Below, one piece after another: positions 15,660-56,717 of a stretch of DNA of 64,000 nt. Position numbers and translations under genes: made by a program. The notes beneath the pieces are model-generated. The model saw nothing but the letters and a program-made list of their open reading frames with translations. It was not told the origin of the DNA and did no database searches. How positions within the stretch are numbered: position 1 is the stretch's first letter; every line of letters starts with the position of its first letter. This stretch comes from Acanthochlamys bracteata (taxonomy: Eukaryota; Streptophyta; Magnoliopsida; Pandanales; Velloziaceae), in NCBI GenBank assembly GCA_019914995.1, contig CM034127.1:7874001-7938000 (forward strand). Reading direction: 5' to 3'.

Positions 15660-17657
15660 CTATGAGGACAAAACAGACTGCAACGCAAGCTGCTGCTGAG
15701 GCTGCAATGCAGACCAGGTTGAGGCGAGAACAGATGGCGGCAATGTCTGCTGAAGCTGCCTCAACAGGTTGATCATCCTGCTAGCTGTTTGTTCTGTAGC
15801 TAAATCCTTACCTGCACATATCACCTACAAAAACACATGTACTGATGCTCAAGACACGAAAAAGAAATATATTATGTCTTGATAGTTACAGTATTGAAGT
15901 GTAGATCTACATTTAACTGAACATAGTCACATGGCATTAAGACAAATTTCAAAAGTTAAACTGGATCAACAATGTATAATGGTCGAATTCACAAGGCTCA
16001 CAATGCTGATAGTTAATAACAACAGCCTATCCGATACTATAGTAGCTTGTTATACACTATAGTGGGTCATCATTGCCCAACTTTCCAAACCAATAAGGAG
16101 AGAAACCGTAAGATAGGATCATGAGCCCGAAGGTTACATGCACTCAAACCAAATTGATGATACCTACAAGTATCTTTCCTGATGTATTGCTTGGTCAATC
16201 CAAGAGCCTACTGATAAATGAAAGATTCTGGAAGAAGATAAATCGGACAGTATTGCTTGGTCATTCCAACTCCTAGACATGATGTTACCATTATTAAAAA
16301 TATAAAGGCAGCAATTGGAAAACTAACATAGAGACAAATATACCCAACAAAGTGCATTCCTAAAAATTTTGAAGTCACCAGTAACATTTTAGAGCAATGG
16401 AAATTCTCATATATGGTTGGCATAGCATTCAGGAAATCTCTAAAGGTAACAAATTCCATTCACAGTTCTTACTGAAGTGGGACGAGATAACATATAATTT
16501 CACCAAGTATCAGAAGAAATTACATCAATACTTGGTTAAAAAACCCTAGACCAGTATAATATTCACATACCTTAGGCACAAGCAGCATAATGTGTTTTTA
16601 AAGAAGTTTTATTACCTCAGCAAAAATAGAAACAACCTTGGGGAGATATTGGTTGTTTGGACCCAACAGATCTGGATCAGACCTGTCCGTATTCACATGC
16701 CATTATACAGCCACATTAATTAAGGAGAGCACCAAAGGTACGTAACTGTGACCAACAGCGCCCAAAATTACCTCTCAACCATAGAACAAAGTTGATCATG
16801 TACAACTTTGGCCTCAATCAAATCACTCTTTATAGGTAAGCAGCTTAGCCAGGCAGGAATTACCTGCAAACGCAAACAAAAATGTGCATATTTAATGGTT
16901 GCATGTGTCACATGCAGCATTTTTATAAGAAATTAATATCTTTGTAGGAGAGAGCAAATACTCTATACTTGTATGATTTTAACTGAAAAAGCGCATTGGA
17001 CATAAAAAAGATGGATATCTTGCAGATGAAATGTTAGTCGATCTTAAATTTGGTTTTTAACTTCTGCATTAACTGCATCAGTTTTGCCTTAAGCTGAATG
17101 GTTGTTACATAAGGCAACCTCAATAACTTACAACTAACGGAAAGGATGACAGTTGGGTTGTTTGGGATTGCCTTCTCAAAACGCACCCCAACTTGTCCAA
17201 CTTAAAAAATAAATAATAAATAAATAAAATCTAGTGTTTTAGAAATTTTTTTATAATTTAGAAAGCATGGATGAATTATACATATGTATATGTATATATA
17301 GGGGCACTCCCTTCCCTGTTTATAGCCGGAGTGACTTCCAAATTCAATCTCCACAGTTCGATATGAAGAACTATGAATTAAAAACCTATCCATAAAATTT
17401 TAACTCAATCGGACTACGAATTCACATCCATCCGATCATTTGATCAAGATTACAGAAAGTAAGAAAACTTAAAAATATATATATTATATCATTTATGTCA
17501 TCTTGATCAAGTAACCAGATGGAAATAAATTCGTGATCAAATTGAGCTAAAATTTTATGTGTAGGTTTCTAACTCATAATTCTTCATATCCAACGATAGA
17601 GATTGAATTTGAAAGTTTCCCCGACCATAAACCGAAGAAAAAGTGCCTCTATCTCTC

Positions 17658-17696
<39 letters not shown>

Positions 17697-18071
17697 TGTG
17701 TACACATGCGGGCCAAAAATGGCCGGCGAGCTCTCTAAATTCAATCTCCACCGTTGGATATGAAGAACCATGAGTTGGGAACATGTTGATAAAATTTCAG
17801 CTCAATCAGAATACGAACCTACCTCCATCGAAACTCTTGATCAAAGTGACACAAAAACAAAATATATATCTTTTGTCAAATTTAAAAGTTTATGTCATTT
17901 TGATCAAAAGTTCCGATGGAGGCCGGTTCGTATTCCGATTGAGCTGAAATTTTATCAACATGTTCCCAACTCATGGTTCTTCATATCCAACGGTAGAGAT
18001 TGGATTTGGAGAGCTCGCCGGCCACTTTTGGCCGGCATGTGTACACATGTGCCTTTAAGGCCTACATGTGC

Positions 18072-18102
<31 letters not shown>

Positions 18103-18852
18103 TGACATTCTTAGAAGCACATGGTGCACATGCCGGTCAAAAGTGCGCGGCGAGACATCAAATCCAATTTCCACATAAAATTTCAGCTCAATCAGAATAC
18201 AAACTGATCTCCATCAGAACTCTTGATCAAAATGACATAAAATGTTAAATTTGACAAAGAATATATATTTCATTTTTGTGTCACTTTGATCAAGAGTTCT
18301 GATATAAGTCGGTTCGTATTCCGATTGAGTTGAAATTTGATCATGTTCTCAACTCATGATTCTTTATATCCAACGGTGGATATTAGATTTGGATATCTCG
18401 CCGGCCACTATTGGCCGGCATGTGCCTCTATTATATATATATATATAGACACATGTAGGTCTTAAAGGCACATGTGTACACATGCCGGCCAAAAGTGGCC
18501 GACAAGCTCTCCAAATCCAATCTCCACCGTTGGATATGAAAAACCATGAGTTGGAAACATGTTGATAAAATTTCAGCTCAACGGAATACGAATCGATCTC
18601 CATCGGAACTCTTGATCAAAATGACATAAACTTTTAAATTTGACAAAAGATATATATTTTATTTTTGTGTTACTTTGATCAAAAGTTCCGATAGAGGTCG
18701 GTTCGTATTCCGATTGAGCTGAAATTTTATCAATATGTTTCCAACTCATGGTTCTTTATATCCGACGGTGGAGATTAAATTTGAAGAGCGGCCACTTTTG
18801 GCGGCATGTGTACACATGTGCCTTTAAGGCCTACATGTGCCTATATCCTATC

Positions 18853-18907
<55 letters not shown>

Positions 18908-19306
18908 GGATGGGGATAGGGGCACCCCATCCTTAGGGGCACCCTTTTCAATCTAAAGTTTCAAATTCAATCTCCACCGTTAGATATAAACTACTATTAG
19001 TAAAAAATGTACTAACAAAATTTCAAGTCAATCAGAATACAAATCGATTTCCATCCGGCTTTTGATCAAATGACATAAATAATAAAATTTGATAAAGATG
19101 TTCTTTTTTCTTTTTATGTCATTTTGATCAAGAGATTTGATGGAGATCAATTTATAATCCGATTGAGTTAAAATTTTGTTGCCGTCTTTGTAACTCATAA
19201 TTTTTCATATCCAACGGTGGAGATTATATTTAAAATTTTTTATGCATCTTTTTAGAAGGGGATCCCCTAAGGTGCCCCTAAGAGTGGGGTGCCCTTATCC
19301 CCACCC

Positions 19307-19362
<56 letters not shown>

Positions 19363-22300
19363 GGAATACTGACACTCCCTTCTCAATTTTTGGACAGTGG
19401 AACTTCAAAAATTTAATCTCCACCTTGTATATCAAAAATATTTAGAAACATATTGACAAAATATCAGCTCAATCTGACCACGAATCGACATCCATCCGGC
19501 CATTTAATGAAGATAACAGAAAATAAGAAAAACACCAAAATATATATATTATCTTCTTTTCGCCATCTTGATCAAGTGGTCGGATGAAGGTCAATTCGTG
19601 GTGCAATTGAGCTGAAATTTTGTCTTTCTAAACTCATATTTTTTAATATCCAACGGTGGAGATTGAATTTTGAATCTCACCGTCCAAAAATTGAAAAGGG
19701 AGTGCCCCTAAGGACTAGTTTGTTTCCCTAAAACCCAGAAAAAGCTCCTTTTCTCAGACGCTCTACTTTTTTCAGCAACCCCTGATGAGGCAAAGTCTAC
19801 CAGAAGTCGTGCACAATATAGGACAACAATTTACAAAGATACTTTTTAATGACTTGACAGACAAATGTTTCAAAGTGAAACTGACTTCAAAGAATGCATA
19901 TAACTGCAAGTTCAAGGGGTCGCTAAATTGGATTCCAAGTCAGCTCCATGTAAATGGACATGGGTACAGACAGAATCATGGAAATGGTACCAGAAACATG
20001 ATTCAACATGCGCATTGATTGAGATACTACAAAACAAAATGCCAAGGTTGCTGGACTAAAGTGAACAACATTTACACATAAGAAAGTGGAGTGCTTTGAT
20101 CAGTAAACTACTGCATTAACTGATTTAGGGAATACTGTCAATCATGGTCAACAGATGAGTAAACCAGACTACTGGTTCCCTATTAGTTAGTCAAAGAACA
20201 CAACAATCATACCTAGCACCTCAAACACAAGCACAACATGCGCAAAGGACAAGAACATTAAGTACGTGCAAGCAGGTTTGTGTGAAACGAATGATGCATC
20301 GACACTAGGTGCAAGGTAATAAATGCACATAAGAACCAAATTACAAAAGTCTAACATCATCATCCACCTGTTTTCTGCCATAGAAATAGCAAGAACAGAA
20401 GCTTAAGTGTGAAAAAGTAAAAAGAAAAAAAAAATATTGTCTGAGAAGAACCGAGTCAACCGACTGGAAAAATAGCTCGGATTAGTTTCAACCATCATAG
20501 CAAAGAGAATAAAACAGTGTGAAGAATGTCTTATTTAACTTTTCAATATCAAAGCATCCTTTTAAGTTCAACTTAATTATATGAAAAATGAAAAAGATGA
20601 ACAGAGATACCTGAGCTGCATCAATACTACTGCGATGAAACTGACATATCTTCCCCAAAGCAGAAACAGCATTATCATATGCCATTACGTTATCTGAATG
20701 TATTGCATTTGGATATCTTATGACATTATTCAATTTGGAGAGAGCCTCTGCAAAACCCAAACCAAAGGTTTAAAAATAAGCCAGAAACCCTTAATTTTCC
20801 TATTCCAACAACCAGCAACGAAAACAAAAGAGTAAAAAAAAAGATTCATAACAGATTCTCTACCTCCAACAAGAGGACAAAAAACAGATCCTCCGAATTC
20901 AGCACAAACACCAACACCATATACAGCAGCCTGAAAATCAATAGATGATCTAGTTACTACGGTCCACAATGCGAAGGAGATTTAGGTTAAGTGTTAAGGT
21001 TCGGACCTGTCTAACGTCTGCATTTTCGTCATTGCATGCTTCCAAGAGAAACGGAACATAAGTATCGTAATACCTGTTAGAAGATTTTTGCCAAAAAAAA
21101 AATAAGATCAATAAGATAAATCTGAAGTGCTACAGTACATCAGCCTTTCAAGGAAATACTAACTTAAGAGCTGCTTCTCGACATTGCTCAGCAACGTCAT
21201 CAAAAATGCAAATTGCTATTCGTCGCTCTTCAGCTGTCTTATCTTTACCCTAAATGATAGGGAAACAAGAACAAAATGAAGAAATGAGAACTTGTTCTAA
21301 CAGAAAATTCATTAGAATTCAAACTATGCAAACACTTCTACATATAAGCATAAGAACTTCAATAAAGAAGCATAGCACAATAAGAACTATCATGGCATCA
21401 CTACTTACCAACATAGGTGTTATATACACTGAAATTTCATCAAAAAATGGAAGGAAAGAAGCCTTGAATATTTTTATTAATGTGCCCAAGCAATCACCAA
21501 TCTGCATTTGTAGATGGAGTTCAGAATTTTGCCACAAGTTGCACTTGATTGAACGTAAAAGTTATTTAGGTTGAATGACACATACTTGATCAAAAACTTC
21601 TTCTTCTTGCTCATTTTCTTCATTAAGCAACTCCCCTTCTTCTGCATCAAAGTCTTCAGCTTTTGTTCTTTCTGCTCTCTCTCTTTTCCTAGTTGTGCTT
21701 GCTGTAATTACATGCTTGATTTCATCAACAATAGACTTGACTTGCCCTTCATTAAGAAGTGGTCCTGAGAGCTATAATAAGAAAAGAAAAAGAAAAAGTC
21801 ATAACAAAAAAGGTATAGTCATCACGAGATTCGTAACTCCAACAAGAATGTAGGATTGTATATATGCATTTAAAAGGAAAATCCTTTACGAATATATTCA
21901 TTCATGTTTACTTTTACATAATAATTCAAGGTGGTAATGATAACTATAAATATACAAAACAAAATGTCATGAAAAAATAGATCTACGCACATACATACAA
22001 ATTTTGTTTTGTCATGTATAACTTTGCATAAGTCAGTAGCGTTACCAATCCAGGAAGAAGACCTGCTTATCAACTAATTAATACTTGCAGCCAGTGACTT
22101 ACAACTTAGACCGGCCCGTTGTTCCATCCCTCTCCAGTTTTTATTTTGCTGGACTTGCATGGAATCATTTACAGCGCTTAAAGACGTGACAAAGTGATCT
22201 ATCCACGACCACAAAAAGCAAGAAAACCAACACCTTAAAAGCAAATGTATGCTTGTCTATAATATTTATTGTACGGGGTGATGCCTTTCATTCCGTTAAT

Positions 22301-39998: not shown

Positions 39999-42900
39999 AT
40001 GTCATTCCAGTACGCTAAGGGCTTCCTTTGCCGCCATTTTTCTACTGCTGCTTCCACACCTTGGTTGTTCGTGGGCCTTGGTAATCCTGGAGACAAGTAT
40101 CGTTTGACGCGCCACAATGTATTTAATTTCCATTTCCTGACTTTATAACTCAACTACTTCAAAATGTTATATAAGCAACATGCAATACAAATTTTACAGA
40201 ATTTTGTCTCATTTCTTTCAGGTGGGAGTTGATATGATCGACATGTTTGCTCGGTCACAGGGCATATCCATGGATAGAGTTCAATGCAAAGCCCTGTTTG
40301 GTGAAGGTGAGTCAGTTGACAGATTAATCAACAATTGCATACGTTCTTATCAAGTCTGGCATTTTTGGAACTGCTTTTTGTTTGTGTTTGTGTAGGGGTT
40401 GTTGCTGGAAATCCTGTTCTCCTTGCAAAGCCGCAAACTTATATGAATCTCAGCGGTGAATCGGTGAGAATCCCCTACTTTTTCATCTATAAATTAAGTA
40501 TTTTTATCCATGATTATGAAATGCTCTGTAAATCCATACAGTTGTACCAATCATATAGAATATTATACAAGCATTTGCTACTGTATCTTCTTTCAAACTG
40601 CATCTGCATTCTTGAACATAAAAGTGCATGGGATAAGGTTTTTGTGTGGGCTGTCACGAATTGTTTTCTGTTCAAACTTTCAGATTCTCTCTACATCTAT
40701 CTGTCTCACTTATCTATCCTCATTATCTCTACCCAATTTTGAAAAAAGAAGCAGCAAAGAATAGCATGCAATAATAAAATAAAAGTCTTATTACAAGTTC
40801 CAAGGTTAGAAATGCATGCAATGGGAAGAAGAAATGCTGCATATTTCATTCAGCTGGCCGTCTGGAGGTTATTGGAAATTTCGTTGTTTATTTCTTGTCA
40901 CTATGTTGTTAACTCCATATTTTTGCCAAGAAGTGGTCGAAATGAGGTCCAAATGATAAAAAAATTTGGTTGAAATTGGTCGCAATTCAAGGCAAGCATA
41001 ACACTACAGTAAGCTCGTATCATTGACGTTGTGGATCAGAACATAGAAAAGATGCCATCTATTTAGTTATTCAGCAGATTTTTCATGCTTATTTTTTTAA
41101 AACAATGGTTTATAAGATAAGAGTGGAGATGAAATATTGTTTTAGTTAAATGTATAAATTTTTTTCCCAAAAGAAAGATCCACTTCCTTTTTGGAGGAGA
41201 TGTTAGGGAAACGGAGAAAAAGCGGGAGCACCAAAAACTTAAAAACGAAGCAAGATAGCTTCTAATATAGTAGTTAATCAAGAGATCTACTAAACACAAT
41301 GTATTTAGTGCTTAAACTCTCTAGATCTAATTAAAATAGTCATAAGTATCAAGAACAGTAAGCACAACAATAGAACGAATGAAGACAAGATTTAATGGTT
41401 TGGCTTAAAAGAAACTTACGTCCATGGAAGAGGAGAGAAGAATTTGACTATTATTGTGAAGATTACAAAAATGGAGTTAAAGCCAAATTCTTGTAAAAGC
41501 TCTAAAGAGAAGATGAAAAACTCTGTTGAAAAGAGATGAAAAATAACCAAGCACGCACCAACCAACCACACTTCTCCCAAGAAAGACCCTTAAAAAAGGT
41601 TTGAAATAAATAAAATAGAGAAAAGAGGGTCAAAACAACAAAAACAGTAAATTTTTACAATTGGTTTATAATTCTCTGTTTTGGTCGTGGACAAGTTAAA
41701 CTCTTATTTTGGTCAAAAAGTGGTAGAAAATAAGGTCGCACATGTCAAAAACTAGTTCAAATGGGTCAAAATTGAAGGCAAAATATAATAGGAGAGAATA
41801 GAAAAAATTTGAGAGATGAGAAGGTAAAGTGGAGTTCTTCTCTCACAGAAAGAATGAGAGTGAAGCTGAAGAATTGGAAAGGATTGATAATAACAACAAC
41901 TTCTCCTTACTTCCGTTCCACGACCATCTTATATAATGTTTATTGAAATTTCTTTTCTAATTTTCTAACGATGTTTTCAGCAACTGTTCCTACACATTTT
42001 ATTGCGAAATTCAGTTATGAATCTCCTCCTAAATATTTTATGAGACTAAATAGTTTTAACACATTACAATTATTTACGACCATACTAATCACTTTACTAT
42101 AATGTTTTTTCCTTTTATTTCAAATTTTTTTCTAATTCTAAGATATTCTTAGTAGCTGTTCCTACACCTTTTATTGCTAAATTTGATTATGAATCTTCTC
42201 CTAAAATATCACATAAAATCTATATAATTTTAAAACATTAGCACCATTTACGACCATACTAATACACTTTAGGACCACCCGAAGATCACCTTACTATAAT
42301 GTTTCTTTGATATTTTCTTTTTCAACTTATTTTTTTTTCTAAATTTCTAGCGATATTCTCAATAACGTTTCTAAACTTTTTATTGCAAAATTTCGTTATA
42401 CATTTTCCTTCTGAAATATATCATAAATTACATAATTGTTAACGCATTACAATCACTTATGACCATAGTAAGACCCCTTATGAACCACCTCACCATCACT
42501 TACCTACCATATTGTTTCACATTTTTTTTTGTAATTTTTTAATTGATATTCTCAGTAAGTTTTGCAATACTATTTTTTATTTCGAAATTTAATACGAATC
42601 TTCTACTAAAATATCATATAAAATCTATGTACTTTTAATGTATTACGACCATATTAACTCATTTTACGACTAATTTACAACTATCTTACTATATTATTAT
42701 TTGATTTATTTCTTGCTTTTAAGTTTTTTTTCTAATTCTTTAACGATATTCTCAGCAAATTTTCCTACACTTTTATTGCAAAATTTAGTTATGAATCTTT
42801 TCCTAAAATATCTTATAAAATCTCTATAATTGTAACATATTACAATAACTTATGACCATACTAACACACTTTATAACAACCATTTTTACGACCATCTTAC

Positions 42901-45900
42901 TATATTATTTTTTTCATATATATATATATATATATTCTAATTTTCTAATGATATTCTCAGTAGTTCCAATACTTCTATTGCGAAATTTAGTCATGAATCT
43001 TTTTCTAAAATATTACATATAATTTATATAGTTCTAACATATTACGACCATGTTAACTATACTAACACACTTTATCACCATTTTATGACCATCTTATTCC
43101 AAAATCTTTTTCACTTTTTAAAATATTTTTAACGATATTCTCAGCAAGAGTTCTTATACTTGTAATGCGAAATTCAATTATGAATTTTGTATTTCGGAGA
43201 GGAGGTTCGTAAATGGACTGAATTTGCCTCGAAAGAGTCCAATTCGCAAAATTTTTTAATGCAGAAAGATTATTTTGTGCTCCAGAGAGCCGATCTCCCA
43301 AAAATCAGCCGTGTTTACTAAACCCATTGGATTTTCGATCGGACAGCAGAGTTTTAGGCACAACGATACAGTGCGTAGTGTCTGCCGTGTCTTTCCCCTC
43401 CCTATATGTATGTTAGGTGAATATCTAGCCAACCTGATCTAGTGGGGCTCAGGCGTAGTTGTTGTTGTGTTGTTGATACTAGTCGAATACTTGTTATTAA
43501 TTGCAGGTTGGCCCACTTGCAGCTTATTATAAGCTTCCCCTTAATCGAGTTATAGTGGTAACTTTCTCCCTTTGGCTTGATATTTGATTACTTTAATTTT
43601 TTGTAGTTATTTGTGAACCTTTAGATATCTTATATTGTCCCAGATGTTTGATGATATGGAACTACCTTGTGGAGTACTTCGCATGCATCTAAAAGGAGGA
43701 CATGGTCGCCATAACGGGTATAAAGCATCTCTTTCTCGAGTAGCCTTGGACGAAACAATTCAATGTTCTTGAATATTGATGACCAATATTTAATAGCTTA
43801 TAACACAATGTCAACTTCGATTTTACTTTATTTTGAGTTGAGTGTTGTGGCTCTTTCTATGCAAATGTACAAGATAACATTGGAAGGTTTTGACAAATAT
43901 AAAATTTTGGAGTTTTCTTATAATCTAAATAAAGTTGAAACCTATCAAGGATTAGAATTGCCTAAGATTTAACTACTCATTATTATCATTGAATTTTTGG
44001 TTATTTTAGTGGATCTTTGGGAAATAGTAAATTAAAAGTTGTTTTAAACATGAACAGGAATATTACTCGAAAATTTTAATTAAAGTATAAGAATAATGTC
44101 TAAATTTCATTAGAGTATCTTAAAAATTGTTTATAGAGATTTTATGCAATTTGTTGGAGTTGGACGTTGCGAGCCATATTTTGCCATCATTAATTGTAGA
44201 ATGTATATCGATTGATAACAAATACCGGCTACATTTATGTCTTTTCATTTAAGATAGCATTTTTTGAAAAAATAAGTCCACAACTAGCAGTCACTTGAAA
44301 TTGTTTTTAATTAATTTCCTGACAAGGAACATTTAAAAAGTAATACGGTTTTTGAATTCGAAGAATTCTTTTCCAAAATGAGTACCTTATGTTGTCCAAT
44401 CTATGTAGTTCATAAGAACTATATAATAAAAGCCGAGTTTTAAGAAAAATACCAAAAAATCGTAATTTTATATTTTAGTTTTCTTAACTGCTTTTGTATA
44501 TAGGATCCTCTATAAGGACATGGGGTCCTACTTTGATAAAAATACTTTTTAGTTGTCTTTGTCTATGTTGTTTGAATAATGTCTTGCCCGGACATTGCAA
44601 CATCTTAAATTTAAATGTTTTTATGTTCAGTTTGTTCGCAGTACGAGAAGGTTCAAATATACACAAATAATGTAAAATTTGATAGGTAGGATTTTTAATG
44701 TTTGAGATTACATTTAACGGTTTTGATTTTGAATCGAAGGTTTAAAAATATGAATCATGAGTTCGTGACACGATGTGGGCACAATTGTGGGATAAAGGAT
44801 TTTAAATCTTTGAATCAGAACTTCACCAATGAGAGAGTCCACATCTAATATGAGGGTTTTCCCTTATCATATAAGCCAACTAAGGAAAAGTTGTCATTCT
44901 AATACATATATGGTATGTTTACCCTCACTTTGTTTGACTGCATACTTAAGATTTTATATTTGTAGGACATTCATTTATCTAGAGTAGATTTGAGAGATTC
45001 CTGTGTGGAGTTGCTTACCAACTTTAACAATTGAGACATTGGTCCTTACGAAGAATAAATAATCTTTAATACAACCCATAGACCATCAATCATCGAGCAT
45101 AAATTTGAGAGTTATTAGTGTGAGTTTATCTCGATTCTTATGATACTTGTCAAGACTGATGCAGCTTTATTATCGTATTGAACTAAAATACATTACGAAA
45201 TTTACAGTGAGTATTAAGCATGGTTGGTTCTTGCTACCGCCTTGGCGATCATTTACATTATTTCCCACTTCTAACTCATGGTTTCTTCATTATTTTTGTT
45301 TTGACCAAGAACTCTTTTGAGACGAGATTAAATGCACAATATACCATGCTCTATTTTATGTATGTTCATAGATTTGGTAGGGATTGATTCGCCTCAAGAG
45401 CATGTATAGTCTCGACTTGTGTCAAAGGGTGTTCAACACTAGATATTCCACTGTAGGCAAGAAATGATTTGGTGAATATATATATATATCTTGTCATGCG
45501 TGTCTATCTATTTTTGGTCTTTTAGGAGCCTCTTTTGGTCCTAGGGATAACTTATCTATTTTCCCCATCTATTCCTTCCAATAATCATATCTAATTTCTC
45601 ATGTAAAGAAATTAACATATGTATTATTGTATTTTGCTATTTGATCATTAATAGATCTGCAGCATTAGAAGGACTAGCACCTTCACTCAAACCTACTGCG
45701 GGTTTGTAGTGTTTTTTAGATTCATTTAATGCTTTATAATAAGCATTCATTTAAATCCGATTTTGTTGTTTAATAAAGATCTCTAAATTGCTCAAGATCC
45801 TTTCGGAGCTCTTCAGCAAATTGTTTTGAGTTCTTTTACTTGTTCTTTGACATTTTTCAAAACTATAAAAGTTTGTTCTTCTATTTTCTTTGGTTTATTT

Positions 45901-48900
45901 TTGTCAAGTAATTGAACAAGTTGAATTATCTGTTCATTTGATCTTAACTCTTATGTAATCTTTAAGTGAATTTTCTTCATTTGATGATTTTTCTGCTAAT
46001 TCTAGATTTTCTAAGAATTTGCAGTCTAAATTAAGAAAATCTTTTTCAAAATTTTCTATAGACTTATCAGATTGTTCTGGCTTCTATTTAGCCAATTTTT
46101 TCTCTAAGTCTTTTTGTTTTTTGTTTCTCAAGAACATAACGAAGAAATAGAAAATCTTTTTGGAATTTCTTGCTTTATAAAAACGAAAATTCTTTACAAG
46201 AAAACATCTTCGTCTATAAGAGACGAAGGCTTATTGGAGAAAACACCCTACATACATACTTTGAGTCGTTTCCCTTTCGAAAAATCGACAAAAAGTTTTT
46301 TTTTAAACTAAAACTAAGGAATACCTGAAAAGTGTTCCTGCAGTCTCTACAACTCTTTCTCTACTCGATCGATGATCATTTGGCTCGAAGGAGTTACATA
46401 TATACAGGAGTTCTTAATTTAACTCTGATTTTCAAACCATGGTTAAAAAAAATCTCTCCACTCAAGTAGGACAAGGACTTATTAGATAACTTTCGTAAAT
46501 GAAAGTTAGAAAAAGAGCCACGTCTCTTGAGATCAATAAATCTTTTATAAAAGAAATAAAAATATTCCTATTTAGTTGTCCAGTTGTTCTTTTTGCTTGT
46601 CATGCGTTGAACATGTGTCTTCTTCTGATGTTGAGACGTCATCTTTATTAATGCTAGTTGAGGGGATAGAAACTTTAATAAATTCTTTTAGCATCAACTG
46701 GACACTTGAAAGGATATCTTCTTTGAAAGATTCTTTTGCCTTTTGTCTCTTCTGCTTTCTCTGTTGGCTCTTTGTTAATTCAGAGCTACTAGCATCGGAG
46801 TCTTTTTGCCCATGACCTGCTTGATCAAGTCCTGCAAAACTGATAGATGGGATAAAGAGAAAGTTTGTACTTCCATTATCACTTTTGATAAGTGATCAAC
46901 CATCAACGGATTTGATGTGCCTTTACCGATGCCGTGCATAGTCGGACTAGAGTGGTCTATACCACTGGTTAGCATTTTGTGGTAAATGCTCAGCCATTAA
47001 CGGATTTGATGAGCCTTTACCTGCACCGTCAGTAGGGCTAGTTAACTTATTCTCCATTAAGTTAAGTACGGACTTTTCATTTTTTGTCGCGGTTTGGACG
47101 ACCCCTATTTTTATAGGCTTTTTAGGATAAAGCCATAAATCTGTCTGCTGTTGTTCAGCAACAGAATGTAAACGTGAAGAAAATACATGTAACTTCATAT
47201 TTTGTAGTTGAGCTTCAAGATTTGATGTAATCTTTAAAAGCTCGTTTTTTTCTTTCTTTAAAGCATCTGCGTGTTTATTGACTCGTTCAACCTGCTCACG
47301 AGTTTCTAAACAATGATCACAAAAAATAATCTTTTCTCCAGGGTGAGCAATTCCATACTGTAAAACAGCATTATCTGAACTACTTACCGTAGAAGAACTA
47401 GACATGGATTGTCTTAAACTTGGTGCAATATAATAATTACAACCTAAATTTCTTCTGGATCTATCTAGTGCAGAAGCTAAACTATGGGAACCCTTAAATT
47501 GCTTAACAGGGGAATTTAGAGTGACACGGATTACATCTTCGTAATCGTGATATACTCCACGAATTTCTTCTTTATAGACAACATAAAAAAGGATACCTTA
47601 ATGTTCATTACATGAAAAAACAAGGCTAAACCATTTAAACAAGCCATAAACTATTTCTGGTCTTTTTCTTACTTATTCCAACCGAACCACAAATTGTCGA
47701 AGTAGACAAGTGTGTTACTTGGATAAACTATAGCTAGTAAGGGATTTAAAACTTTTTTTGCTAGGAGCAAAACCATTAAAGAAAGGTTACCGAAATAACA
47801 TCTTTCTCCAGAATTAACATGCTTCGGGTTCACCCTTATAAACTTTAGGTTTGTTCTTAGCTGAAGAAAGTTTTACCTCCTCAGCTGATTTCTTGCATTT
47901 ATCAGGTTTATCTGGCGGTTCTCCCATCTGAACAGAAAACTTATTAGTCAAACTGTCAGAAATAATAAATACAGCTCTAGATAATAAATCAGCAGCAACA
48001 TTAGATTTTCCGTGCGAATGTTCAATTTTAACATGCTTAATGGTGTTGAGTTTATCTAGTAAATTGTACCATCTACGCTGAGTAGATCGCTTTTCATTTA
48101 ACTTGTTATAGAATTTTACTATAGCTTCACGATATGTCTGATTGTAATTTCATCTTTAGGGAGAATAAACAATTGTTTGCATAAAATGTTTGCTGCATAA
48201 TGACCGCATTGATTTGTTGATCCAAAAAAAAGTTTGCGTATTTTTAAGACTAGAAAATGGTATCTTATTTATTCTTGATACTCAATTATCTCCTATATGC
48301 ATTATTGAAAATCAATCAATTCAATCGCTCACAGTTTTAGTTTGTATAAAATTTTATAGAATTGAATTACGTAAAATTAAATTAAGTAGAATTTACAAAT
48401 TTGAATTAAACTGAATATAAGTAATTTTAAATGAAGCAAAAAAAAAGAATATGTAATTGAAATAAATTTTATGTTAAAATATCTACCCAACCCCTTACAG
48501 AAAAATCAAAAAGCTAAAGAAGACTTAAAATGCGTAATAGTGATTTGATTTCGGTTATATTTCCTTTCCGCTTGATGTGAGTGCTACTTTTCTTTTCCTT
48601 ACACTTTATGCAGAAAAAGATAATATGTTCATTACTGCTAATGCAAAATACAGATTTAAAGATGCATTCAAATTGTTTATTCTCCCTAAAGATGAAATTA
48701 CAATCAGGACATATCGTGAAGCTATAGTAAAATTCTATAACAAGTTAAATGAAAAGCGATCTACTCAGCGTAGATGGTACAATTTACTAGATAAACTCAA
48801 CACCATTAAGTATGTTAAAATTGAACATTCGCACGGAAAATCTAATGTTGCTGCTGATTTATTATCTAGAGCTGTATTTATTATTTCTGACAGTTTGACT

Positions 48901-51900
48901 AATAAGTTTTCTGTTCAGATGGGAGAACCGCCAGATAAACCTGATAAATGCAAGAAATCAGCTGAGGAGGTAAAACTTTCTTCAGCTAAGAACAAACCTA
49001 AAGTTTATAAGGGTGAACCCGAAGCATGTTAATTCTGGAGAAAGATGTTATTTCGGTAACCTTTCTTTAATGGTTTTGCTCCTAGCAAAAAAAGTTTTAA
49101 ATCCCTTACTAGCTATAGTTTATCCAAGTAACACACTTGTCTACTTGACAATTTGTGGTTCTGTTGGAATAAGTAAGAAAAAGACCAGAAATAGTTTATG
49201 GCTTGTTTAAATAGTTTAGCCTTGTTTTTTCATGTAATGAACATTAAGGTATCCTTTTTTATGTTGTCTATAAAGAAGAAATTTGTGGAGTATATCACGA
49301 TTACGAAGATGTAATCCGTGTCACTCTAAATTCCTCTGTTAAGCAATTTAAGGGTTTCCATAGTTTAGCTTCTGCACTAGATAGATCCAGAAGAAATTTA
49401 GGTTGTAATTATTATATTGCACCAAGTTTAAGACAATCCATGTCTAGTTCTTCTACGGTAAGTAGTTCAGATAATGCTGTTTTACAGTATGGAATTGCTC
49501 ACCCTGGAGAAAAGATTATTTTTTGTGATCATTATTTAGAAACTCGTGAGCAGGTTGAATGAGTCAATAAACACGCATATGCTTTAAAGAAAGAAAAAAA
49601 CGAGCTTTTAAAGATTACATCAAATCTTGAAGCTCAACTACAAAATATGAAGTTACATGTATTTTCTTCACGTTTACATTCTGTTGCTGAACAACAGCAC
49701 ATAGCTTTATGGCTTTATCCTAAAAAGCCTATAAAGGTAGGGGTCGTCCAAACCGCGACAAAAAATAAAAGGTCCGTACTTAACGGAGAATAAGTTAACT
49801 AGCCCTACTGACGGTGCAGGTAAAGGCTCATCAAATCCGTTAATGGCTGAGCATTTACCACAAAATGCTAACCAGTTGTATAGACCACTCTAGTCCTACT
49901 ATGCACGGCATTGGTAAAGGCACATCAAATCCGTTGATGGTTGATCACTTATCAAAAGTGATAATGGAAGTACAAACTTTTCTTTAACCCATCTATCAGT
50001 TTTGCAGGACTTGATCAAGCAGGTCATGGGCAAAAAGACTCCGATGCTAGTAGCTCTGAATTAACAAAGAGCCAACTGAGAAAGCAGAAGAGACAAAAGG
50101 CAAAAGAATCTTTCAAAGAAGATATCCTTTCAAGTGTCCAGTTGATGCTAAAAGAATTTATTAAAGTTTCTATCCCCTCAACTAGCATTAATAAAGATGA
50201 TGTCTCAACATCAGAAGAAGACACATGTTCAACGCATGACAAGCAAAAGGAACAACAGGACAACTAAATAGGAATATTTTTATTCCTTTTATAAAAGATG
50301 TATTGATCTCAAGAGACGTGGATCTTTTTCTAACTTTCATTTACGAAAGTTATCTAATAAGTCCTTGTCCTACTTGAGTGGAGAGATTTTTTTTAACCAT
50401 GATTTGAAAATCAGAGTTAAATTAAGAACTCCTGTATATATGTAACTCCTTCGAGCCAAATGATCATCGATCGAGTAGAGAAAGAGTTGTAGATACTGCA
50501 GGAACACTTTTCAGGTATTCCTTAGTTTTAGTTTAAAAAAAAACTTTTTGTCGATTTTTCGAAAGGGAAACGACTCAAAGTATGTATGTAGGGTGTTTTC
50601 TCCAATAAGCCTTCGTCTCTTATAGACGAAGATGTTTTCTTGTAAAGAATTTTCGTTTTTATAAAACAAAAAATTTCAAAAAGATTTTCTATTTTTTCGT
50701 TATGTTCTTGAGAAACATTTTGTGAAATATATTATTCAGAAGGTAGCCATGAAGCTTGTTAATTCTGTCTGCAGAAATGAAAGGTTTTTATAGGAAAAGA
50801 TGAACAATGGGTTTAGGGTTAGAACTTTTAACACATTAAAAATTCAAAAGACTCATTGCCAATAGTACCCGAGATGCCCAGTGGCCCGAGAATGGCGTAG
50901 TGGCGAATAGGGGAAGACGGCTGAAAAGAGGTGAGGTGTGTGAGCAGTAAACCAAAGTTGCCCAATATGTTTGTTGTATACCTTAGTTAAGCAGATGTTT
51001 TTCCAGAAGAAATTTTCATGTCTGAATATATGGTTTTCATAAAAGAAAATTCAAAAAGGCATAACATATAACTATAACATAATGAAGAAGTAATCCTAGT
51101 AGCTTGAACGAAAGGATAAAAATTCAGTATGTTATACTTTTCTTATTTTTCTTTTATATTTTGTTTAGGAATGGAGAACTTTTTCTTAGTTACAGAAAAG
51201 AGTCAAAGTACCAAGTAGGAATTAATCTAAGATGAATACGCCTGCTTTAGAATTTACGCATTTAAATGCAGTTTATTGTTTTAAACTTAGTTTTAAACTA
51301 TTTAAGCTAGGTTTAAAGTTTATGATCATCTAGACGGATGATTATAAGAAATCAAGAATTATTCTTAATCTCTTGATGATTAGTTTACTTTCCTTTTTGG
51401 GAATAAAAAGAATAGTAATGTTTATCTGCTTAAATTTAACATTACTTTATTACAAGATATCGAGAAATTTGGTTTACAAATTTTCGATGGATTATAGCTT
51501 CTTATATCATATTAGTGATTCAAACATATCACAATTATGGTATTATAAGAAGAGGAATCATCTATGGAATAATTTATTTCATAGATAAATTAACAAATGT
51601 CTTTGCAATAAGATTTTGCATTGAAAAAGTTAAGTAAAGAATACAGAACCGGCTGTTTTCCGGCAACACCACCTCTTTGGTATATATATATATATATATA
51701 TAGTCAAGATAGTGATATGATCTCTTTCAGAGCCAATACGGTGTATTATAATAAGGTTTTCGGTGAATTAACCCATCCTCTTTACCCTGGAGTTATTTTA
51801 CGTTTTCTTATATTGTGGTTACACAATTTTCCTTATGATGCTATTTCGAGTTTTCAAAATGACTAGGTGTAACTTATACCTTAATGGCATGTTCCGGCTT

Positions 51901-54900
51901 TTCATTCCCAAGTGGCTTGTATTTCAAGTTATAAGCTTTTCTAATGAAATGTTCAAAAACATGTTGGATTTTGTAGAACAATATTGATTTAATCTAAAAT
52001 TCGCTTTAGTGCTCCGCTCCCTAGTAGTATGTATCACTCATCAAGATGGGCTTAAGTTGATATTGATATCATTTATTATAAGGATTGTAAAAATTTGGTG
52101 TCATGTTGGAAGCATGAACTCTTCATCTTGGTTGATGTGTGCCTTAGTATTTATATATGTTCATCACAATGCATGTTGATATGCAAATAGGTCAGGATAA
52201 GAATGTGTTTTTTGAACTTTGGTAGCAACGTAACAAATAGACTTGTCCATACTATCAGAAAACAAATATAACATTTATACAAACTTAATCAAATTTAAAA
52301 ACTTTAGTTAACACATGGAAATTTTGAAAAATATTTGTGTAATCACTATACAGAATCTTCTTCATAAAACTGTACATGGACTTAGTGCAAGATGTTAGTG
52401 ATTAAGACAGGTCCTTCGCAAAGAATAGACAAAAAGAAGCATGTAATCTGTGCTTTACATGAAACAAAGATGAGGAATAGACCTATTATTTTTATTAAAA
52501 TGTAATACCACTATGCACATCTTTAGTTTTGTTAATCTCATTCGATTGTAGTTGCTCATTTGGCTACCTTCTTACTTCGGTTTTTATGTTTGAGAAATTT
52601 GTCGTGGGGAATCAGATTACATACTAGTAAGTTAGATATTGAAGACTTATAACTAAACATAAACACTTTTATGTTGCAAGTACCTTCTTTTTTCTAGTTC
52701 CTCTGTTACGATTTTGTATCCTTTCAAGATGGGAAGGGTCGAGTAAGCTTTGAATGTTAGGGGTGGACGATGTGGAAAATTGGTGCAAGTAAATGTAAAA
52801 CAGCTAAGAAACATGAATAGAATTCTTTCTCAAAAAAATAAAAAATAACAGTACAATAAATATAACACTTTCAACCACCTGTAAACCATCCATTTTTTGA
52901 TGTGTATATTAAAATAGCTTAATCTCATCAATAGTACTTCACCTTTGTCGTTTCAGATAAGCTCTATCTTTATTTGAATATCTAAAATATATGTGACTTC
53001 TAAAATTTTGATTTGGATGGAGCAACAACATGATTGTGCATCAGAGTTGCTTCATGTGATGATATAAAATAGTCCTCCTGACCTAATCTCAGTTATATTT
53101 TGTTGAACAACCTGTTCTTGGTATTGGCCTAAACTTAAACTCTTTATGTCTATAATGCCGTTGACCTCTTTGCACAACCAATTCAAAATGATCTTCTCAA
53201 CATCCTTTATCATATTAGAACTCAATATTTTCGAATGCTAAATCCATTCCTTTTGGCATTGTTATTACAACATTTAAACTGTCATCTTTGAATGATTCGA
53301 ATGCCATTGCCACCTCTGGTTTCCTCTTTCATTTCACTTTCAACTTCAAGAGAATTGGATGTCATAAGAATATGATTCGTATAGTTTGGGCTTTTATATT
53401 CACTCTTTTTTGATAATTGGCTAGAAGTTGAGGATTGGCATCTAAACATTTCCTTATATTATAGTTTTTCTAGCTAGTTGCTTGTAAAGTTTGGGGCATG
53501 GTATTTCACATATATCGATGGCCAGTAATTGGTATATTGTCCATGTATGGGTTTACTACCTCCTTTTGTGTCAGTGGTTTGGAGCAGTTGATACTTAGAT
53601 ATCTCCATTTTGTGATAAAATGTAGGTGTCATCTTCAGATTAGAGATTAAAGGGCTGTTTGGGTGTGCTTTTAGCTCTGTCATCTCTTTTTTAGCTTTTC
53701 GTTTTCTGAGAAACTTTCTATAGTATTCTAGAAATATCTTGATGTAATGGGTGATTTGCACGTTATAGAATCATTATATGTATAATTATTTGATATTTTT
53801 TAAGCCAAAAAAGTCAAACTTGTTTCCCAAAAGATCCTATAAAAAGCTCCTTTTCGCTAAGAGCACTTTTCATAAGCAATTCCAAACGATGACTAAATTT
53901 AAATTTGTCGAGAAGTTGGAACTAGTATCTTACACCTGTTAATATTTTGAATGAGTTAGCACAACTATGTTTTTCAAGTATCACCATAAGTTGATAAGAA
54001 GTGAGCTACACGCTGACGAAGGTTGCCATCAAACATTACAACTTGTGTTGGTGATATCATCTCAAAAATAGTATGTTATCATTCCACAAAACATGTGATT
54101 TGTATATTTGATGCTCGTGATATGGTTTATGTTTGCAATTGAGCCTTCGATGCATTCTTTATAGCATGTTTTAACATGTTAAGAGTGACAACACTTGCTT
54201 GAATTTATTGTTTGGTTGATGATGTTGAATGTGCACCCACTTGCACCCACGTTCAATTTGGTAAGTTGTTGATCTCTTTCCTTTAACTAATTCTCAATGC
54301 GCGAACATGTTAATACCAAAATTCATGACTGAGTTGTTTATGTAGTAGCTTTGTTTTATTTTTGTAGCATGTCTTGTATCAAAACCAACTCTAGTAAAAA
54401 TGTTTTACACAGATGTTATAATCATGCCTATCATAGGTTCATGTTGTTTATGTACTACACTTTTGGGTGCAAGTTGTTTACTTGGGGTTGTATTTGCTCA
54501 CAGTCACTTACAAAGAGATGCTTTATGCATTTTATCCAACTTACAAATGGAAGGTGCAAATGCCCCTAGTCCCTTCCTACTAGATGTGCAGTTTGGGCAC
54601 CTTTTGGTTACCACCATACCTAGTGCTTTATGATTGAATACTTTGGACACATAGCCCACAGGATGACATTTTATGATTACTCTAGTAGTAGTTGATAAAG
54701 TTGTCCTACGGTATGGCTATCATTTCCATCCAGAGACCCTTTGTATTAGTAGCATTTATTTATTTATTATTTTTTATAAGTTTACTCCCAAATTTATGGT
54801 GAATTTGATCATATTTTCTTAGACAAGACTAAAATGTGTAGTTTTAATGTTTTTGCTTCACAAGACTATTTGATATTGCAGCCCATGTACTTTTTTTTTT

Positions 54901-56717
54901 GAACGTTATCAATTGTGGCATTGTAGCTAGTAGTTTTATTATCTTCATATGATAACATTAGACAGATATTGAGATTTCAGATACTACGAATAGGGCAAAC
55001 GGGAAGAAGATTATAGCATATGGATCCTGCATTGCTTAGTGTACCTATGCTTGCAAAATGTATGTTCTTTAACAATCTTCTTCTCTCAGGTTGAAGAATG
55101 TAATATACCATTTCAGGGGTAATAAAGAGTTTGGACGATTACGAATAGGTAGGTTTTACCTCCCTCATCTTTTTCTTGCTTTTTAAAAGTTTATATATTT
55201 ATATGATGCTAGTTGATCACGTTTTCTTTTTCAGGCATTGGAAGGCCACCAGGTCAAATGGACCCAAAAGCATTTCTACTGCAAAGTTTCAATGCTACAG
55301 CACGTGAGAGAGTGAGTGCATGATGCCTTACTGGATCGCAAAGCTTGCCCAATTTCAAGATGTCTGTTTTGTCATTCTTCACTTTCTATCCTAAATCATA
55401 GTTCCCTTGTTTTCTGCTTCTGATATAACTCTTTTGTTCTTCTCATAGAATCTAGGGGTTTTACACTTGCTTTTTGAACATAGCATTTCTAGATTGGTCT
55501 ACCGAAGCTCAATTTTTATCTATTTAGTATAAACACAAAACATGAATTTGTGAGAATTGTGGGTTAATCTTATTCTGGTTAGTACTAGATGGATATTTAA
55601 TCATTGTACTAACATCTGATTAAGAATCTCTTTTTTTTAAGATTAAATGACTGAATAATTCAAGAGAGTCAAAATAGCAAAACAAAGATAATAAAAACAA
55701 AAAATAAAAGAAGTGTCCTCTGGAAGTGGTGGAGACCATATAATTCGAGTGAAGCTTTGCAAATATAATAAGGTGCCATGATAGGCTACATAATCGATCA
55801 CTATCAAACAAAGCAAATATGTTAATTGAAACTAATGCTGCTCCCTTTTCATGGAGATGAACCTTATTGGTCTATGTTACTTAAGTCAATTTAACTTCAG
55901 CTTTGCGGACCTGTTATGTGCTTATGCTCTTGCTATGTTGTATTAGTTCTTGTTATAAAGCTGCCGCGCTAGACGAAAGTCAATGACGACTCCTTGCAAG
56001 CGCCAGACTCTACTCACTGCAAAAGCTTATATTTGGCCTGCAAACTCACTCTCTGTTTGCTGCTTTATATTAACTCTTTTGGCTGTCTGATCTCAATGGC
56101 ACATGCATTTGTATATGGAACTTCATAGGTTTTTTTTGGGACTTCTTTACTTGTAAAAGTTGCTTGCAAGACAAATTTCTATTCTATATTTCTTTCCTAG
56201 TTTCTCTTTTGTATATTCTACTGATATCATTTTCCATGCTTGTAAAGCTTGCTATTAATGGAAGTTGGCTTTAGATTCCATGCAATTGGAACTTACTGGG
56301 CCAAAATTAATGTGAAATGAGCGTCATACACAGCCACATTTTCATCCTAGCACTTTTATTTGACAGTAATGATAAATACTGGTAGATGTAGTCCTTTGTT
56401 TGAGACATTTTAGTACAGAATAAATACTAGAGTAGGATGACATCCTTTATTTGACTATTACAAGTTAAAATGGTGATTGTGGAATTTTGGCTACCTATTT
56501 CCTTGAGATCAGGATTTCAAGCTGTTGGAGTATTATGAGATTTTACTGATTTGAACTAATTGATATATTCTGCTGCTTGTACCAGGTTGATATGGCTTTG
56601 CAAGAAGGAGTAGTTATTTTGAGAAACATTTTAGAGAAAGGTTTGACAGAGTCCGCAAGGTCTGCCAACACAGATCAGAAGTATAAACATCTTAGAGTTC
56701 AGAGCTTGCATTTGTAA
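39999..56717 (+). CDS. PTH: Peptidyl-tRNA hydrolase (bacterial Pth type), complete
   Basis: Cleaves the ester bond of peptidyl-tRNAs that drop off ribosomes, recycling tRNA; plant members act mainly in organelles. Eight exons: 39999-40118, 40222-40306, 40396-40463, 43507-43557, 43644-43717, 55090-55148, 55235-55311 and 56586-56717. They sum to 666 nt, 221 residues, with all phases consistent and GT-AG borders. Catalytic positions are all present: N29 (GLGNPG), H39 (TRHN), M85-N86 (YMNLSG), D111 (FDDMELP) and N132 (GGHGRHNG). The N-terminus [19 protein letters not shown] is basic and hydroxylated, as for a mitochondrial or plastid transit peptide. An in-frame TAG 24 bases upstream supports the ATG at 39,999. 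Intron 3 (3 kb) carries a ~200-bp tandem repeat. Intron 5 (43,718-55,089, 11.4 kb) contains an inverted endogenous pararetrovirus and a MITE, a very large load for a 221-aa gene. The position matches At5g19830. Confidence 0.94.
41925..43210. repeat. Diverged tandem repeat, ~200-bp unit, six to seven copies, in PTH intron 3
   Basis: Copies begin near 41,931, 42,090, 42,288, 42,500, 42,685, 42,893 and 43,088. The shared order of words is ACGACCATCTTACTATA, then TTTTCTAA, GATATTCTCAGCAA, CCTACAC-TTTTATTGC, AAATTTAGTTATGAATCTTC and ATATCATATAAAATCTAT, then TTACGACCATACTAACACACTTTA. Units differ by substitutions and small indels, so the array is old. A related GGTCGTGGAC/GGTCGAAATG motif recurs at 40,930-41,000 and 41,690-41,760, giving the block a look of CACTA-type subterminal repeats, but no terminal CACTA pair was established. 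Confidence 0.75.
45490..46137 (-). pseudogene. Viral ORF1 N-terminal remnant
   Basis: On the minus strand an ATG at 46,137 opens a lysine/glutamate-rich frame, broken by stop codons within the first 20 codons and again later. It can be followed with frame changes to about 45,490. Its composition (charged, coiled-coil-like) fits the N-terminal part of a caulimovirid first ORF, and its position immediately after the leader supports this. It has no counterpart in the right copy. The inner boundary with host DNA at a TATATATATATA tract (45,478-45,489) is approximate. Confidence 0.45.
46572..47600 (-). pseudogene. Viroplasmin-like viral ORF, left copy (broken)
   Basis: In viral sense the segment at about 47,600-47,410 resembles the caulimovirid viroplasmin/RNase H1 N-terminal domain: Y-V-V-Y-K start, a G-V-Y turn, K-Q-F-K-G and a terminal YYI. 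Then comes an open stretch of 152 codons (47,405-46,947) with a C-x-x-C-like pair and a K/E-rich coiled coil of about 40 residues. At least two frameshifts, near 46,970 and 46,830, separate this from a serine/lysine/glutamate-rich C-terminal part that ends at a TAA (46,572-46,574). A further frame break lies near the domain start. It is non-functional as it stands. Confidence 0.55.
47814..48175 (-). pseudogene. Viral RNase H 3' fragment, left copy
   Basis: The C-terminal part of a pararetroviral RNase H region, with the typical H-x-x-G-K-x-N-V-x-A-D-x-L-S-R block near its middle and a hydrophilic K/E/P-rich tail before a TAA (47,814-47,816). A one-base deletion near 48,140 breaks the frame upstream. 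It mirrors the right copy at 48,577-49,032. Confidence 0.6.
48577..49032 (+). pseudogene. Viral RNase H 3' fragment, right copy
   Basis: An open frame of 151 codons. From about residue 34 on it matches the left copy and shows the [13 protein letters not shown]-type block, the [10 protein letters not shown] segment and the H-x-x-G-K-x-N-V-x-A-D-x-L-S-R block found at the end of RNase H in caulimovirids and Ty3/gypsy elements. The first ~33 residues have no recognised counterpart and the catalytic N-terminal half is absent, so this is a truncated relic. The ATG at 48,577 is only the start of the open frame, not a viral start. Confidence 0.6.
49240..50265 (+). pseudogene. Viroplasmin-like viral ORF, right copy (broken)
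   Basis: Mirror copy of the left viroplasmin-like frame. The viroplasmin-like segment at about 49,250-49,440 is followed by the coiled-coil segment, but here a TGA interrupts it near 49,560 and a small insertion near 49,770 shifts the frame. The lysine/serine/glutamate-rich tail ends at the TAA near 50,265. It is more damaged than the left copy. Confidence 0.55.
50267..50715 (+). promoter_or_regulatory. Viral non-coding region (promoter/leader-like), right copy; mirror at 46,121-46,571
   Basis: Between the end of the viroplasmin-like frame and the next viral ATG. It contains an AGACGTGG box (50,311), a 7-bp stem at AACTTTCATTTACGAAAGTT (about 50,331-50,350), a TATATAT box at about 50,434-50,441, and downstream an 8-bp stem with a 5-nt loop (CTTCGTCT / AGACGAAG, 50,611-50,631; mirror 46,208-46,228). 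This order fits the single intergenic promoter and structured leader of pararetroviruses. The tRNA-Met primer site was not recognised. Confidence 0.45.
51680..51702. repeat. (TA)n microsatellite
   Basis: About 11 TA units in PTH intron 5. Confidence 0.85.
53651..53892. mobile_element. hAT-like MITE in PTH intron 5
   Basis: About 242 bp. The left end GGGCTGTTTGGGTGTGC and the right end (reverse complement AGTCATCGTTTGGAATTGC) are eroded versions of the ends at 1,211-1,454. The interior shares CGTTATAGAATCATTATATGT, CTTGTTTCCCAAAAG and AAAAAGCTCCTTTTC with that copy, which makes membership of the same family clear. Confidence 0.65.

Follow-up and report, generated by a model that had tools for sequence, protein, structure and literature searches.

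A palindromic caulimovirid in a host intron

In Acanthochlamys bracteata, a gene for peptidyl-tRNA hydrolase (PTH) carries within its fifth intron a real, well-bounded palindromic endogenous caulimovirid. We located it in a 64,000-nt stretch of contig CM034127.1 (assembly GCA_019914995.1, positions 7,874,001 to 7,938,000 of the forward strand), which we call the window and whose coordinates are used below. The locus has two inverted viral arms, a (TA)n run at either boundary, an outer end at the tRNA primer site, and filler at its centre, and four loci of similar geometry, this one included, are present in the genome. The best explanation, which we favor by a modest degree, is a single insertion in which a hairpin formed by fold-back of the viral minus strand was captured at a chromosome break. 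From left to right, the insertion and its boundaries comprise the following:

45476-45489, no strand: (TA)n run, left boundary (repeat-run scan)
45490-46120, minus strand: two more viral pieces, 45512-45939 and 45945-46120 (similarity to family loci)
46122-48175, minus strand: left arm, with the leader side outermost, a viroplasmin-like frame within 46947-47597, and the RNase H end innermost (self-comparison; PF01693 at 13.5 bits, cut-off 21)
48176-48670, 495 nt, no strand: spacer, with 270 nt of unsettled origin, 200 nt of host-derived filler, a short stretch, and ~11 viral bases
48671-50717, plus strand: right arm, with the RNase H end innermost, a viroplasmin-like frame at 49248-49562, and the leader side outermost (self-comparison; PF01693 at 21.7 bits, cut-off 21)
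50718-51680, plus strand: continuation of the right copy, which runs through the leader and stops at the tRNA primer site
51681-51702, no strand: (TA)n run, right boundary (repeat-run scan)

The first-pass annotation of this DNA had described two nearly identical viral segments of ~2.05 kb in opposite orientation around a ~0.5-kb spacer, covering the RNase H end, the viroplasmin-like frame, and the viral promoter/leader, and had proposed that the arms be aligned to obtain their identity. This description is borne out. Gapped alignment of the arms spans 2,054 columns and gives an identity of 98.0%; 33 mismatches and 4 gap openings separate the two, and a 495-nt spacer lies between them. An ungapped search returns four inverted pairs, which together cover 46122-48138 on one side and 48708-50717 on the other, and self-comparison within 44000-53000 places the end of the inverted match short of the host flanks. 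The viroplasmin-like frame is shorter in the right arm than in the left. As a control for inverted matches, we used eleven stretches totaling 100,470 bases, six from the window outside the finding (two of which have 4.5 kb in common) and five taken at paralogue loci. Inverted matches of at least 200 nt occur in one of the eleven, at ~17.3-19.7 kb of the window, and all of these are 66-81% identical. The sequence there (17333-19691) is a self-palindromic interspersed repeat of ~300 nt, with six copies in the window.

The center of the palindrome is composite. The first 270 nt of the spacer have only short matches of 72-75%, confined to the second half of that stretch. The next 200 nt (48446-48645) are a 93% match to G000:C2:14421594-14421796, on the same contig and 6.5 Mb off, and by this likeness are a copy of host sequence, that is, host filler. 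The source-like locus lies downstream of an open frame (L030, C2:14.42 Mb) that appears to encode a protein of the senescence-regulator type. Templated filler of this sort is usual in break repair. A junction alignment shows that ~11 viral bases of the right copy end the spacer, preceded by a short stretch of unsettled origin.

On sequence grounds, the palindrome is an endogenous caulimovirid, and the locus reads as a fossil. A leader segment matches the window and at least 12 other places among the best candidates scored; these 13 family loci were examined, each in 10-kb stretches, and additional family places exist beyond them. The right arm, read in sense, passes from the RNase H end through the viroplasmin-like frame to a noncoding leader. 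The remaining domains come from related loci rather than the window: reverse transcriptase (PF00078, E = 7.7e-37 in L012), RNase H (PF17917, E = 1.1e-14 in L016), a caulimovirus-type (A3B) aspartic protease (PF21024, E = 4.4e-17 in L014), and a movement protein (PF01107, 25.8 bits in L019 against a cut-off of 23, and 16 bits, below the cut-off, in L013). An exact 12-nt match to the initiator-tRNA primer site stands at the leader end in L009, L011, L018, and L020, and the window retains only the first bases of this site. A scan of six arm frames gave no match to reverse transcriptase, the viroplasmin-type domain being the only one seen there, and the RNase H remnant, which had no Pfam match in the same scan, was placed by similarity to the related loci.

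The viral block occupies ~45490-51680 (~6.2 kb) and fills the gap between the two (TA)n runs. The originally reported span, 46119..50718, does contain both arms, but it understates the viral limits, which are wider. Exactly two runs of (TA)6 or longer lie between 43701 and 55100, of 18 in the entire window. At the left, the two additional viral pieces share the orientation of the left arm, and their order differs from that in L018; the segment 45490-45511, without a match, we assign to the viral block by inference. At the right, similarity to other family loci extends to 51664 and is followed by TTTGGTAT and then an (AT)n/(TA)n run, where L018 has TTTGGTATCAGAGC, the primer site. The right end of L009 also runs into (TA)n. 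A 2023 review describes (TA)n as a frequent neighbor of endogenous caulimovirid insertions (PMC10377300).

Related loci

Self-comparison of the 13 family loci reveals closely similar viral inverted copies in five of them, the window, L009, L010, L011, and L014. Four of the five are head-to-head, and L011 is tail-to-tail. The four outside the window are as follows:

L009, C19: head-to-head, inverted copies 94.6% and 95.6% identical, arms ~3.2 kb
L014, C19: head-to-head, 91% identical across the full palindrome, arms ~1.9 kb
L010, C7: head-to-head, 88.9% identical over the full palindrome with its center, ungapped arm pairs 93% and 96%, arms ~0.4 kb
L011, C9: tail-to-tail with a 790-nt offset, inverted copies 92-97% identical

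L019 has a single inverted viral match of 268 nt and was left out of this count because its 84.7% identity is no closer than that of copies in different loci. The window arm is 72-93% identical to the 12 other loci, mostly 73-82%. Since arms within a locus are more alike than copies between loci, the palindromes of different loci appear to have formed separately, barring conversion of the arms by each other.

Other arrangements were seen in the family. In L011, the viral leader region is tandemly duplicated (95.5%) and joined by the tail-to-tail inverted copy within 3485-6645, and (TA)n runs lie at 2476-2491 and 7404-7421. L017 carries a direct viral repeat (1-3546 and 5122-8665, 98% over 3,561 columns, 5.1 kb apart). 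Family pieces occur on opposite strands near each other at G000:C8:7777071-7780015 and G000:C12:5168292-5168696 and may be inverted loci. Copies of the ~300-nt self-palindromic repeat described above are also found near viral pieces in L010, L011, L012, and L014.

Origin of the palindrome

In caulimovirids, minus-strand DNA begins at the primer site and grows via the leader, viroplasmin, and RNase H regions toward the reverse transcriptase. In all four head-to-head loci, the center lies upstream of the leader in the viral sense, at depths that differ from locus to locus, and the arms run toward the primer site; arms so directed around a center of varied depth are as expected for minus-strand fold-back. 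Measured against third copies, the overshoot of one copy at the center is ~11 nt (plus filler) in the window, 30 nt in L014, 45 nt in L010, and 460 nt in L009, the first three values being read by eye from alignments. In simulations with independent, uniform breaks, at least three of four offsets fall within 50 nt with a probability of 5e-6 (7 kb) to 1.5e-4 (3 kb). Each of the four loci also has one outer end near the primer site, at ~+3 to +6 in the window, +16 in L009, -2 in L010, and -4 in L014, as assessed by eye. The arm without the primer-site end is the shorter one in three loci, and in L009 it runs past the primer site. Three of the four head-to-head loci match a fold-back product, and the fourth does so partly. 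Fold-back of the nascent minus strand fits this shared geometry better than chance joining does.

We propose that the window locus arose by one insertion of defective caulimovirid DNA at a (TA)n site in PTH intron 5, with the palindrome formed before or during that insertion. A nascent minus strand that had started at the tRNA primer site (5' end) and reached the RNase H region (3' end) would have folded back while unfinished and primed its own copying; we infer both this step and the polymerase responsible. The product would be a head-to-head palindrome centered where synthesis had reached, with one complete arm that extends back to the primer site and a second arm as long as copying went. 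Such a hairpin would then have been joined into a chromosome break together with host filler and two extra viral pieces. That fold-back of some kind took place seems to us reasonably probable; that it was specifically a snap-back of the minus strand we hold open as nearly even, with a slight lean against.

A number of observations weigh against this proposal. In an ideal fold-back product, the primer site would mark the outer end of either arm; each palindrome has one such end, and in L009 the second copy passes the site. The center of the window locus is occupied by ~470 nt that are foreign or of unsettled origin, so it is no clean hairpin loop. L016, which is not palindromic, ends within ~10 nt of the primer site, and copies in L011, L013, L018, and L020 run through it, so that primer-site ends are neither palindrome-specific nor general. 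L011 is tail-to-tail with its 790-nt offset, and the opposite-facing viral pieces of L019 overlap by just 268 nt at 84.7%. The offset probabilities, moreover, are post hoc and concern four loci.

Alternatively, when a chromosome break was repaired, end joining may have linked two separate linear viral DNAs head-to-head, with no fold-back, which we consider possible but clearly the less likely course. Head-to-head end joining is common for transferred DNA in plants. The presence of several viral pieces and host filler in one block is typical of this repair, and both the tail-to-tail L011 and the little-overlapping pieces of L019 speak for it. Furthermore, the breaks in the window and L014 lie ~20-30 nt apart in the RNase H region, as a common discontinuity in the viral DNA would give. 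However, near-equal breaks in three of four head-to-head palindromes are improbable by chance, and a shared discontinuity leaves L010, with its center near the leader, and L009, with its center in the reverse transcriptase, unexplained. Two-molecule joining thus accounts for the mosaic and leaves the small offsets without an explanation.

We do not claim the break position common to the window and L014 as significant. A hairpin hot spot at that position, formed by a viral stem-loop and assessed in 44-nt folding windows, was dropped because its high rank in L016 (top 1.5%) was not matched in L019 (70%), L018 (10%), or L012 (13%). Separately, a purine-rich tract is present in the RNase H coding region of L016 and L019, ~55-65 nt upstream, in the viral sense, of the window/L014 break. 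By eye, in the alignment, it resembles a plus-strand primer tract, which could, by way of a discontinuity, provide a natural point of breakage.

Hairpin DNAs are known from cauliflower mosaic virus infection. They would be the by-product that the fold-back model requires, although they are unintegrated and belong to another virus. Among titles and abstract openings of the open-licence papers listed on palindromic pararetrovirus integration and cauliflower mosaic virus hairpin DNA, we found no report of a snap-back origin for integrated copies, which is not proof of absence.

Host gene and hairpin RNA

The host gene has an intact frame. Its exons were placed by tblastn, for which four paralogous genes, in five stretches, supplied the frames, and the end of exon 8 was counted from the joined frame:

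39999-40118, 40222-40306, 40396-40463, 43507-43557, and 43644-43717, plus strand: PTH exons 1-5 (tblastn with paralogue frames, splice sites, PF01195)
43718-55089, 11,372 nt, plus strand: PTH intron 5 (exon placement, splice sites)
55090-55148, 55235-55311, and 56586-56717 (stop included), plus strand: PTH exons 6-8 (tblastn, open frame)

The eight exons have GT-AG sites; spliced together, they give a 221-residue open frame with a 198-bit match to PF01195 (peptidyl-tRNA hydrolase), in agreement with the earlier placement of the palindrome inside intron 5 of PTH. By exon placements, the corresponding intron is ~2.2 kb in L026 and ~2.8 kb in L028. For a hexosaminidase frame nearby, the top score among the best 120 of 1,527 matches belongs to a partial Cinchona record (65% identity over 83%), and the named records that follow are from monocots, with oil palm first at 73%.

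Unspliced or lariat intron RNA of this gene would form a double-stranded stem of ~2 kb, a likely Dicer-like substrate. The stem had been called perfect-like, and the long hairpin stands, with 1,417 of the 2,034 21-mers of one arm found perfectly in the other. Judging by frame orientation, the leader of each copy is outermost and points away from the center; viral transcripts would thus head out of the palindrome, which makes read-through from the host gene the likely source of hairpin RNA. The idea that the locus feeds small interfering RNAs (siRNAs) is plausible on these features; actual siRNA production from the arms may well occur, though we stop short of expecting it, and a protective role for the locus is very doubtful.

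A stronger proposal is that the locus is a working, selected antiviral memory, in which host transcription yields hairpin siRNAs that silence related viruses or copies in trans; it is compatible with origin by either fold-back or end joining. When 678 sampled arm 21-mers were compared with the 12 other family loci, ~8% matched perfectly, 29% with at most one mismatch, and 54-55% with at most two, in excess of three host control stretches (0%, 0%, and at most 0.2%), and tomato offers a precedent. Nevertheless, the 72-93% identity of the arm to those loci, mostly 73-82%, leaves few perfect trans targets, and the drop from 54-55% within two mismatches to ~8% perfect makes cis effects likelier than strong trans silencing. 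Origin alone can account for recurrent palindromes with no need of selection, and the long intron may equally be neutral. We therefore regard a selected memory as improbable.

Divergence of the arms

At plant substitution rates of 1.3e-8 to 7e-9 per site and year, the 2% divergence of the arms corresponds to about 0.8-1.4 million years if they were identical at birth. Differences at birth would mean a younger insertion, and conversion between the arms would mean an older one. The event, or its conversion, had been called recent from the little-diverged arms; the low divergence holds, and the recency is only relative, at roughly a million years. When the 33 arm differences were polarized against the 12 other loci, 10 fell to the left arm and 22 to the right, with 1 unclear. 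Nine of the 22 right-arm changes are C to T on the sense strand; with so few changes and such distant outgroups, we make no claim of a methylation signature. The inner 600 nt hold 3 of the 33 differences (p 0.0045, for a region picked after seeing the data), a weak indication of gene conversion near the center.

Mirror-image duplication is a known type of assembly error, but it is highly improbable that the palindrome is such an artefact: the arms differ by 33 substitutions and several indels, the extent is asymmetrical, host filler lies in the spacer, and inverted copies, 89-97% identical, are present at four other loci.

Relation to known systems

For tomato and soybean, PMC10377300 reports caulimovirid loci in inverted-repeat form that give rise to 22-nt siRNAs. 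The tomato loci are those of Valli et al. 2023, as cited by PMC10377300 and PMC12904150, and going by these citing papers, the hairpin-siRNA idea is already in print for tomato. As they describe the tomato loci, these and the window locus are alike in being rearranged caulimovirid inverted repeats capable of hairpin RNA, and they differ in that 22-nt siRNAs were mapped in tomato, whereas the window is known from its sequence. Unlike the tomato loci as so summarized, the window repeat lies in a host-gene intron and is one of four with similar geometry. The soybean long inverted repeats processed by DCL2 (Jia et al. 2020, as cited in PMC10377300) are likewise caulimovirid-derived, and also transposon-derived, and there, by the same citing paper, small RNAs were shown, in contrast to our sequence-level view of the window. 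In cotton, head-to-head endogenous pararetroviral elements have opposite copies that are 98.98% identical, against 98.0% here, and those elements are ~15 kb with nearly complete copies (PMC10458927), while the window arms are 2 kb.

As a possible siRNA source, then, the locus belongs to a kind already known, for which intron placement would add a simple source of transcription. We find the similar geometry of the four loci the more interesting part: such a geometry, common to four loci in one genome, would point to a specific origin, one open to checking through sequence surveys of any plant. The route of pararetroviruses into chromosomes was called speculative in a 2023 review (PMC10377300), and inverted-repeat pararetrovirus loci have been proposed as a form of heritable RNA-based immunity. 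It is conceivable, if unlikely on present grounds, that hairpin-ready viral loci arise repeatedly from pararetrovirus reverse transcription, with nascent minus strands snapping back before their capture at (TA)n breaks. If so, heritable RNA-based memory of viruses would be seeded by errors of viral replication and not by later rearrangement.

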